Shown here in pieces: positions 15,278 to 26,919 of a stretch of DNA of 64,000 bases; position 1 is the stretch's first letter; the number at the start of each line of letters is the position of its first letter. A program made the translations under genes and the position numbers. Origin of the DNA: Clostridiaceae bacterium (GTDB lineage Bacteria; Bacillota; Clostridia; Lachnospirales; Lachnospiraceae); assembly GCA_910574345.1 (NCBI GenBank), contig CAJSZV010000011.1, positions 1-64,000 on the forward strand, read 5' to 3'. Below the pieces are notes generated by a model. That model had not been told where the DNA came from and ran no database searches. It was given only the letters and a program-made list of their open reading frames with translations.

Positions 15278-15418
15278 CGTCACTCCTCCTCATATTACAA
15301 AGTAACGCCCCCTCACTTAAAGTTCGGCGGCATTTCGTCGGAAGGCATTTTAATATGCGCTGCATTGGCCTTCCTCCTGGAACAAGCTGAATATAATCGT
15401 TTTATTTGTTCTATGTGA

Positions 15419-24475: not shown

Positions 24476-25369
24476 TCACATCTGGGAGGCGCCTTCCTCT
24501 TTCCATCTCGGATCATCCAGAAAGCCTTCCCCGTATACCTCCTTCGTCTCCGACACAATTACAAAAGCGCCAGGGTCGCAGCTGTCAATCATCTCCTTAA
24601 CCAGATAAAACTGCTTTCTGTCCACGACACACATAAGCGTCTCACTGTCTTTTTGGCTGTACCCTCCTACACTCTTGAAAAACGTAGTGCCTCTGTCCAG
24701 CCTGTCCATGATCATTTCGGCAATCTCATGATTCTTCGGCGAATGAATCATCACCATGGTTCCCTTATTCATACCGTAAAGGATAGCATCAATGGCCTGC
24801 GTTGTGCACACCATGGAGATGATTCCGTAAAGAGCGGATTCCAATTCTCTGAATACCAAAACCGAGGCGCCGATTACCACAACATCAATGAGCATAATGG
24901 CATATCCCGTGTGCATATAGGGATATCGTTTCTGGAGAAGTTTTGCAAGAATATCTCCGCCGCCGGTGGTGGAACCTTCCATAAAGATCAGGGCCATACC
25001 TGCCCCTGCCAGAATTCCGCCGAAAACCGATGAGATGAGCCTGTCCCCTGCATACTGCGGAATCCATGGCGATACTGCCCCGTCCAGAACAAGAGACATA
25101 AGAACCACAGTGCGGACGGTTTTGAGAGCCATCTTTTTATCCAACAGTACATACGCGCCAAGCAGCAGAGGAATATTAATAAGTAAAGTCAGAGTGCCCA
25201 CAGGAAATCCTGATAAATGATTGATTAACAATGCGATTCCCGACGCCCCTCCCGGCGCAATCATACACGGTTCAATAAAACACCACACACCCAAAGCCTG
25301 CAAAAAGGCTCCCATCAGATCATACGCCAAGTCCTTTCCCCATTTTTTTATCCCTTTGTCTGCTCTCAT
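24476..25369 (-). CDS. YitT family membrane protein (DUF161/DUF2179)
   Basis: A 297-residue protein with five or six transmembrane helices in residues 14-175, including the GGxxGIA motif (PCMIAPGGASGIALLIN) and EGSTTGGGDILAK. A C-terminal DUF2179 domain (about 220-285) contains YSQKDSETLMCVVDRKQ. The family is common in Firmicutes, and transport has been proposed but not shown here. The frame is open far upstream but only through the leader and neighbouring gene; AGGAGGAG before the ATG at 25369 fixes the start. Its leader has its own promoter, a compound hairpin and an intrinsic terminator, so expression is likely controlled by attenuation. Confidence 0.88.
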   Translation of the reverse strand: MRADKGIKKWGKDLAYDLMGAFLQALGVWCFIEPCMIAPGGASGIALLINHLSGFPVGTLTLLINIPLLLGAYVLLDKKMALKTVRTVVLMSLVLDGAVSPWIPQYAGDRLISSVFGGILAGAGMALIFMEGSTTGGGDILAKLLQKRYPYMHTGYAIMLIDVVVIGASVLVFRELESALYGIISMVCTTQAIDAILYGMNKGTMVMIHSPKNHEIAEMIMDRLDRGTTFFKSVGGYSQKDSETLMCVVDRKQFYLVKEMIDSCDPGAFVIVSETKEVYGEGFLDDPRWKEEGASQM

Positions 25370-25573
25370 AATTTTTCTCCTCCTTTTCCCGGCTGAGAGC
25401 ACAAGACCAGGTCCATCCGTCACATGAGTGTTTCTCCAGATGCAAAAAGCAGAGGCCTTGTGCCCCTGCCATAGTGAACCGGAGCACCAATCATAACTTT
25501 CGTTATAATTCCGCGCACCGGCACGTCTTTTTAATTCTGTTCTTATTCTAAACCACAAATCTGCAAATGTCCA
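25370..25573 (-). promoter_or_regulatory. Candidate attenuator or riboswitch leader of the yitT gene
   Basis: Minus strand. Promoter TGGACA (25568-25573), 17 bases, TAGAAT (25545-25550); start near 25538. A compound hairpin spans 25524 down to 25474: GTG/CAC, CCGG/CCGG and GCGC/GTGC, topped by a nine-pair stem closed by a GAAA tetraloop. The terminator at 25444-25469 follows after a few bases, then AGGAGG and the ATG. GTGCTCC (25481-25487), in the hairpin's 3' arm, can instead pair with GGGGCAC (25460-25466) of the terminator. That gives two mutually exclusive folds. I do not recognise it as a known riboswitch class. Confidence 0.6.
25444..25469 (-). terminator. Intrinsic terminator inside the yitT leader
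   Basis: Minus strand: GCAGGGGC (25462-25469), loop ACAAG, GCCTCTGC (25449-25456) gives eight pairs including one G-T, followed by TTTTT. It lies about 75 bases before the yitT ATG and after the promoter. It may also end transcripts from the MATE gene upstream. Confidence 0.78.
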
Positions 25574-25593: not shown

Positions 25594-26919
25594 TCACACA
25601 CCATGTTTTCTTGTATGGAAATAATAGGGAACCTCCACCAAAAGCATGGCGCTCCACCCGATTGCACAGGCAAAAGCAACACCAGAAAGCCCTGTGCCCG
25701 GAGTCAGGATATAGACGAAGATCACACGAAGGCTGGTCTGAATAAAGGTGCCGAGAAGCGTCATCTTCATATGCTTCTTCCCCCGGAAATATCCCTGCAT
25801 TCCATTGGTAAAACCGGGAAATATGTAAAAAAGGGCCATAATTCCCAGATAACCGCTTCCCAAAGCCACGATCTCCTTTGCCTCTCCCCCCACAAAAAGC
25901 TTCATAAGAGGAACTCTTAAGACAAGTATGGCGGCACAAATCAGTATCCAGTAACCGAATTCCAGCAAAAGACCAGCACGAAAGCCTTTTCTGATCCTGT
26001 CCTCCCTGCCTGCCCCGGAATTCTGAGCCACAAAAGTAGTGATGGCATTGGCAATGCTCTGTTCAGAGGTAAATGCGTAGGCGTCAATCTTGTTCACCGC
26101 GTTAAAGGCCGCCATCACATCCACCCCCATGGGATTTACCGCTCCCTGTATCAGAAGCTTTCCAATAGGCTGACAGGACTGCTGAAGAGCCGTAACACTT
26201 CCATACTGCAGAGTCTGTCTCAAAAGCCCCCTGTCCACCTTGAATTCCTTCCATGTCAGCTGAAGGAGAGGAATCTGACGGTATACATAGACAATGCACA
26301 AAACCGCGGATAAGGCCTCCGCCACCACTGTGGTCACGGCGGAGCAGGTAATCCCGAAGCCCAGAACTCCGATAAAAATCACATCCAGTACTCCGTTTAG
26401 GACAGAACAGAATGCAAGAAATTTTAAAGGCGTCCTGGAATCCCCCACGCTTTTCAGCGCCGACGCAACAGCATTATAGAAAAATGTAAAGGGAGCTCCC
26501 AGGAATATGATTCTCAGATAAGAGGAAGCCGTATCCAGAATCTCATGGGGAACATACAAAGCTTTCAGCAGAGGCTTTGTCACCAGAATTCCCAAAGCCA
26601 CCACAATCAGAGAAAAATATACCCCGAAAACAGCCGTGGTTGCCATTTCTCTCTTCACCATATCCTCCTGCTTTGCGCCGAAAAAGCCGCTCATCAGCAC
26701 CGACGCGCCGATGCAGATTCCCGATATGCCGAGAATAATAATGTTCATCACCGGGCTTGTGGTTCCCACCGCCGCCAGTGCTTCCTTTCCGATAAAGCGC
26801 CCCACAATAATGGAATCCACCGCGTTATAGGTCAGCTGGAACAGATTGCCCAGAATCAGCGGAATCGCGTAGGATATTAAGTGCCGGGGGATATTCCCCT
26901 CTGTCATGTCCTTTACCAT
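25594..26919 (-). CDS. MATE-family efflux transporter
   Basis: A 441-residue, 12-helix MATE protein: PLILGNLFQLTYNAVDSIIVGRFIG in helix 1, IANAITTFVAQNSGAGREDRIRKG in the second half, and a short soluble tail. It exports drugs, toxic metabolites or flavin-like compounds with sodium or protons; substrate unknown. The ATG is preceded by AAGGAG. It follows the DUF6930-like gene by ten bases, so both are probably one transcript. It differs clearly in sequence from the other MATE at 10232. Confidence 0.92.
   Translation of the reverse strand: MVKDMTEGNIPRHLISYAIPLILGNLFQLTYNAVDSIIVGRFIGKEALAAVGTTSPVMNIIILGISGICIGASVLMSGFFGAKQEDMVKREMATTAVFGVYFSLIVVALGILVTKPLLKALYVPHEILDTASSYLRIIFLGAPFTFFYNAVASALKSVGDSRTPLKFLAFCSVLNGVLDVIFIGVLGFGITCSAVTTVVAEALSAVLCIVYVYRQIPLLQLTWKEFKVDRGLLRQTLQYGSVTALQQSCQPIGKLLIQGAVNPMGVDVMAAFNAVNKIDAYAFTSEQSIANAITTFVAQNSGAGREDRIRKGFRAGLLLEFGYWILICAAILVLRVPLMKLFVGGEAKEIVALGSGYLGIMALFYIFPGFTNGMQGYFRGKKHMKMTLLGTFIQTSLRVIFVYILTPGTGLSGVAFACAIGWSAMLLVEVPYYFHTRKHGV

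Follow-up and report, generated by a model that had tools for sequence, protein, structure and literature searches.

The question raised by this locus is whether yitT is preceded by an RNA that controls its transcription and, if so, which signal that RNA would sense. To our knowledge, the YitT family (PF02588 with DUF2179) has no settled function. An RNA that senses the signal for one YitT copy would give a direct handle on YitT function, because an in vitro search for the ligand requires no knowledge of the protein. We analysed a stretch of 64,000 nucleotides (the window) in which a first-pass annotation had described the yitT leader as designed like a transcriptional riboswitch or a protein-controlled attenuator. 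A structured, conserved, terminator-coupled and yitT-specific leader RNA stands from that description; the competing pairing that it named does not. We consider it probable that a conserved leader RNA controls yitT through the terminator, and the definition of the element by nine leaders, its invariant positions and two models makes the idea testable.

The yitT leader in the window

A MATE gene (25594-26919) and yitT (24476-25369) flank the leader, which lies on the minus strand. Its parts are the following.

25573-25545, minus strand: sigma-70-like promoter TGGACA-17-TAGAAT, 10 of 12 consensus bases, predicted start at about 25538
25531-25479, minus strand: conserved 53-nt element, predicted to fold as a compound hairpin
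25521-25531, minus strand: 5' strand AAAAGACGTGC of the conserved element, with AAAAGA and TGC invariant in five of five lineages
25512-25525, minus strand: alternative early hairpin H1, CGTGC (25525-25521) with GCGCG (25516-25512)
25479-25521, minus strand: compound hairpin, with lower stem CCGG/CCGG, middle stem GCGC/GTGC and upper stem H2
25489-25510, minus strand: H2, nine-pair stem AATTATAAC-GAAA-GTTATGATT
25460-25487, minus strand: candidate competing pairing, GTGCTCC (25487-25481) with GGGGCAC (25466-25460), possible (p 0.081)
25444-25470, minus strand: intrinsic terminator, stem 25470-25448, then five T
25384-25379, minus strand: ribosome-binding site AGGAGG
24476-25369, minus strand: yitT, ATG at 25369, with a PF02588 membrane domain (E 7.1e-55) and PF10035 (DUF2179; E 2.2e-19)

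The promoter, the compound hairpin with its nine-pair, GAAA-closed stem, the five-T terminator and the AGGAGG, all of which had been described before, are present in the sequence. In the compound hairpin only the last base of the 5' strand is paired and the rest of that strand is unpaired. Promoter-like sites (15 in 8 kb, 9.0 expected) and terminator-like sites (14 in 8 kb, 8.1 expected) are common here, so those two scans alone carry little weight. Both Pfam matches in the yitT product exceed the curated cut-offs, and the source genome has six YitT-family copies.

Relatives carrying the element

YitT orthologues were gathered as 12 loci from genome contigs (L020-L031) and by genus and family searches, and 17 YitT loci were viewed in detail (the window, L020-L031 and L044-L047). 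The element is present at ten of these and absent at seven (L026-L031 and L047), absence being judged by a whole-core model, R1 (for L026-L031), by a model of the 5' half, R2, and by eye. Since L024 and L025 have one leader in common, the loci yield nine distinct leaders in five lineages: the window, L020, L021 and L022 (Hungatella); L023; L024; L044 and L046 (one genus); and L045. The hairpin and the terminator, for which conservation in orthologous leaders had been proposed as the check, are kept in all nine.

The nine leaders score 39.3-51.4 bits with R2, values that are not independent, because R2 was built from them; the gap below them is independent, the next site among 21 sources scoring 14.5 bits at a distance from any leader. 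Under the stricter R1, L044 and L045 reach 13.4 and 9.1 bits, within the noise. Their elements were identified by inspecting the sequence 5' of the gene, and homology was tested separately: in alignments of lineage pairs, 0 of 2000 shuffles were as good as the native sequences in each of eight pairs.

The order of promoter, structured leader, intrinsic terminator and gene, seen in the window, was also seen by eye in the other leaders, with two exceptions, L045 (no clear promoter seen in its leader by eye) and L023 (no T run). By eye, TGGACA and TAGAAT recur in the three other Hungatella leaders, L024 has the promoter-like TTGTAA-17-TATGAT, L044 and L046 have TATACT, and the TATAAT of L023 is farther away.

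Presence of the element coincides with presence of the gene. Among 26 genomes of the genus, the four with an orthologue (E 1e-90 or better) are the same four with R1 scores of 73-75 bits, and among 397 genomes of the family the five with an orthologue (E 1e-110 or better) are the same five with R2 matches, each in the yitT leader, in a scan whose stricter filters may lose weak matches. R1 itself gave matches in 4 of the 397 genomes of the family and in 5 of the 26 of the genus; matches in G188 and at two G006 sites (28-29 bits) were judged to be chance on inspection. A DNA search gave matches in 10 of 299 genomes, and those outside G000 and G044 are only 24-57 bases long. The 5'-half pattern, which misses the window itself because the window has GCGC, occurs in 5 of 392 genomes of the order (three matches for the reversed control), and no match continues as the element. 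It also matches 52 viral stretches, none of which has the next conserved block. The element was not found in the plasmids or phages searched, and a search for a viral YitT relative found none. A protein tree of 14 orthologues (L030 left out) places three changes in element presence, with poor support.

In the window, the genes around yitT are MATE and FeoB by Pfam. At other loci the neighbours, named from their first residues, are presumably a MerR-like regulator, a sugar isomerase-like gene and an M20-like hydrolase, and at another yitT locus we take them to be an acetyltransferase-like and a cytidine deaminase-like gene together. As the neighbours vary while yitT stays common, the element follows yitT. 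The gene 3' of the element is yitT in every leader, and the element was found with no other gene and in one bacterial family.

Sequence conservation of the element

With one leader taken per lineage, 21 of 31 columns are invariant in the 5' half (AAAAGA, TGC, GCA, GG, AT, ATA and CG). In the 3' half only 2 of 25 columns are invariant, yet the pairing is retained. Pairing is better between the 5' and 3' strands of one leader than after strands are swapped between leaders (rank 4 of 120 permutations; rank 8 of 120 for the lower stem alone). The hairpin, for which a check for compensatory changes had been proposed, has changes on both sides at five columns of a hand alignment (12-15 and 29); because insertions and deletions hamper alignment of the region, they are support rather than proof. 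The fourth H2 pair is replaced by an internal mismatch or a bulge in other lineages, and column 25 of the hand alignment is a mismatch, wobble or bulge in four of five lineages.

In 10 of 12 leader pairs, similarity is higher over the element than over the first 300 coding bases, for example 0.96 against 0.75 for the window and L020, and 1.00 against 0.82 for L044 and L046. All segments are identical between L024 and L025, and the order is reversed for L023 and L044 (0.65 for the element, 0.68 for the coding start). Since unrelated flanks score about 0.57-0.60, the distant element values of 0.65-0.72 are modest.

Folding is stronger than in shuffled sequence. The 172-nt leader has a z score of -3.53 (1 of 200 dinucleotide shuffles equals it), the 90 nt of hairpin plus terminator -4.82 (0 of 200 dinucleotide shuffles) and the 53-nt element alone -4.65 (0 of 200 shuffles). 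Taken by lineage, the element scores -4.65 (window), -3.04 (L023), -3.99 (L024), -4.87 (L044) and -4.25 (L045).

A 5' half conserved as a linear sequence, and not as both strands of a pocket, would also fit a protein-controlled attenuator, in which the 5' half is the binding site of an RNA-binding protein that promotes or prevents formation of the terminator; this protein might be YitT's own regulator. The narrow range and single target gene suit a local protein-RNA pair as well. However, there is no candidate protein, the neighbours of yitT differ between lineages, and Rfam's known RNA-binding leader motifs give no match, so that we regard this explanation as rather doubtful.

The same conservation could in principle belong to the DNA. 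The inner bases of the inverted repeat RTGC-N(2-4)-GCAY are invariant in five of five lineages and lie a few bases past the predicted start, as would be expected of a repressor site, with the hairpin and terminator being separate features. DNA-binding dimers, however, seldom allow variable spacing of their half-sites, and the spacer here varies from 2 to 4 bases. The conservation also extends past the palindrome on both sides, and the 3' arm keeps its pairing in every lineage. An operator is very improbable on these grounds. The same 2-, 3- and 4-base spacers shift the reading frame between lineages inside the element, which argues against a conserved leader peptide and against a conserved extension of the YitT N-terminus. 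Although the frame is open into yitT in the window (a 487-codon ORF) and in L042 and L043, there are in-frame stops in L008 and L009, and no shared start codon or ribosome site is seen by eye; the probability of a translated leader appears close to negligible.

The early hairpin H1

The central strand of the element is common to two folds, pairing either with the 5' strand as H1 or with the 3' arm in the compound hairpin. The H1 helix, which was not noted in the first-pass annotation, is in all nine leaders and is more widely kept than the pairing of GTGCTCC with GGGGCAC proposed there. Its four inner pairs are present in six of six distinct 5' halves and its fifth pair in four of six. One H1 pair is changed on both sides (G-C to A-U in L045); as 74 of 500 shuffles reach the level of H1, the covariation support for it is weak. 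In L044 and L046 the H1 arms are only two bases apart, too few for the innermost pair to close.

In growing transcripts H1 is predicted to dominate first and to yield at about 54-58 nt, its early probability in L044, L046 and L045 often being only 0.4-0.6. In nine of nine leaders the compound hairpin is roughly 6-11 kcal/mol more favourable than the H1 fold, which means that a ligand would need to pay that energy or to act during RNA synthesis.

Pairing of GTGCTCC with GGGGCAC

The first-pass annotation had placed the switch in the 3' arm of the hairpin, whose GTGCTCC can pair with GGGGCAC of the terminator. This pairing is possible, and neither the compound hairpin nor the terminator can form alongside it, but it is not beyond chance and is not kept outside Hungatella. 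We compared the duplex of the 3' arm with the terminator 5' arm in each leader with 1000 shuffles. The window duplex has -13.3 kcal/mol against a shuffled mean of -9.3 (p 0.081), and p is 0.03 in L020, 0.121 in L021 and 0.228 in L022, all Hungatella. In the other lineages it is 0.239 (L023), 0.66 (L024), 0.28 (L044), 0.826 (L046) and 0.25 (L045). At p 0.05 the native pairing is no better than shuffled in eight of nine leaders, and only L020 passes.

The growing window transcript favours this fold at 84 nt (-26.8 kcal/mol), and by 97 nt it loses to the terminator (-29.3 against -40.0). Base-pair probabilities of growing transcripts show a return of the early fold, at 80-86 nt, for the window, L020 and L022 alone; in L021 the return is hardly visible (0.06). 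The pairing is thus favoured only briefly, in three of nine leaders, all Hungatella. From the shuffle p values and these probabilities we reject it as the conserved switch; within Hungatella it may serve as a local refinement.

A second pairing in the window leader joins GGGGCACAAGGCC (25466-25454) with GGTCTTGTGCTCTC (25408-25395) over about 13 bases, and involves the terminator 5' arm and loop. It is strong in the window (centroid), is also seen by eye in L020 and was not seen elsewhere; it was set aside because it is made after the terminator. Among the nine leaders, no conserved antiterminator pairing that excludes the terminator was found.

The terminator across leaders

A hairpin follows the element by 3-12 nt in eight of the eight leaders folded, and the terminator of L046 was read by eye. 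A T run is present in eight of the nine leaders. The ninth, L023, has a strong stem without a T run and a second hairpin with six T further down. As their sequences differ, the terminators appear to be kept as a function and not as a sequence.

Separately, at about 3860-3960 of L023, a single 3' arm, followed by six T, has two GAATCCTGCTG copies as competing partners, which is a possible second attenuator in that leader. A palindrome TTCYATAGGAAA...TCCTATGGAA lies 3' of the terminator in L020 (3919-3930) and, by eye, in L023, L027 and L044; among 107 loci its exact pattern occurs only in L020 and its copies, and the window has no exact match.

A passive leader would be a stabilising 5' hairpin with a leaky terminator, or else a small RNA of about 95 nt made in its own right; yitT would then be expressed by read-through and nothing would be switched. 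Such an arrangement would agree with the lack of a conserved antiterminator and with L027 and L029, whose leaders have a terminator-like hairpin (GGCAGGGGC...TTCCTGC) without the element. A passive hairpin, however, does not need a 5' half that is nearly invariant across lineages, nor would it be expected to stay with yitT as other neighbours change, and we consider this explanation improbable.

Comparison with known RNA families

The statement that the leader matches no known riboswitch class was borne out by covariance search with Rfam 15, which gave no match over it. At gathering score, the only match in the window is GA-cis at 15297-15381, and none lies over the yitT leader; the leader alone gave 0 matches at E up to 10. 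In six related loci there were seven matches at E up to 5, none over the element and all below gathering. The L045 and L044 leaders gave 10 and 16 matches at E up to 10, all far below gathering; the best is SurA, on the opposite strand (E 0.007, 17.5 bits against a gathering score of 100). The yxkD gene of the guanidine-I riboswitch (ykkC-yxkD leader) is also a YitT-family gene. The Rfam scans of the window and of the leaders covered gave no match to that riboswitch.

The closest parallel in layout is provided by the guanidine-IV riboswitch (GGAM-1, mepA motif) and its variant Gd4v, in which, according to passages of two reports, a first hairpin is followed by a terminator that is itself the expression platform (PMC7736828, PMC9788692); passages of PMC11611296 and PMC12186494 also bear on the guanidine-IV and Gd4v layout. 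The yitT leader likewise has its own promoter and a first hairpin closely followed by a terminator hairpin, and single membrane-protein genes are among the targets, as far as these passages describe them. The guanidine-IV and Gd4v families serve MATE and GNAT genes in the portions of PMC9788692 consulted, and a MATE gene lies upstream here, which would speak for membership. However, the guanidine-IV terminator loop is described in a passage of PMC7736828 as having highly conserved bases needed for binding, and the terminator loops of the eight leaders folded here differ throughout and have no shared bases by eye. Nor was any kept complementarity between the first hairpin and the terminator loop, or any extra hairpin in the folds of these eight leaders, seen by eye. 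In the yitT leader conservation instead covers the first hairpin's 5' half and the leader sequence preceding that hairpin, and the only downstream gene found is yitT, not sugE or a transaminase. This comparison is based on the published terminator-loop feature. Membership in guanidine-IV or Gd4v is extremely unlikely; by analogy with what these passages describe, the yitT element may work like those riboswitches without being one.

The HMP-PP (thiS) riboswitch and the HRC-8-4 motif are also built on or beside an intrinsic terminator, with conserved bases at the tip of the terminator stem in the part of PMC8632094 that treats them, whereas the terminator of the yitT leader is not conserved in sequence. 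In the open-licence papers searched nothing was found on this yitT leader, and YitT and riboswitch occurred together in none of them, which is no proof of novelty. A word search of the main text of two surveys of new bacterial RNAs (PMC11109978, PMC8632094) found no YitT or DUF2179.

A possible mechanism

The reading that we favour, to which we give slightly less than an even chance, is that the leader is a cis-acting transcription-attenuation RNA of yitT and a riboswitch for a small molecule or ion. The 5' strand would first pair with the central strand (H1), after which the 3' arm would displace it to form the compound hairpin. The terminator would form next, and by default transcription would stop. 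By binding the conserved 5' half, a ligand would fix the RNA in one of the two folds, and this choice would alter the passage of the polymerase through the terminator; most simply, yitT would be switched on.

More specifically, and only tentatively, we propose a new Lachnospiraceae riboswitch class with a single-sided sensor in its 5' half. The sequence AAAAGA-N-RTGC-N(2-4)-GCAY-GGAWT would bind the ligand during RNA synthesis, hold the early hairpin and let the polymerase pass the terminator. If this is true, the ligand would be whatever YitT moves or whatever is sensed by its predicted PII-like domain, and it would give the first assigned role to a widespread uncharacterised family. The C-terminal DUF2179 domain of YitT (24476-24780, minus strand) has a predicted PII-like fold, close to PstA/DarA, which would make a nucleotide or a small effector a first guess for the signal. 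On the same structural prediction, the membrane part of YitT would look as if it carried its own sensor.

Another RNA in the window

The GA-cis RNA (RF02987) scores 58.8 bits on the minus strand at 15297-15381 of the window. The gene start that follows it is, we assume from its residues, that of a ClpB-like protein. About 50-90 bases upstream of the GA-cis RNA there is, by eye, a near-perfect repeat, TTAGCACTC-N9-CAGTGCTAA, which we take to be CIRCE-like.
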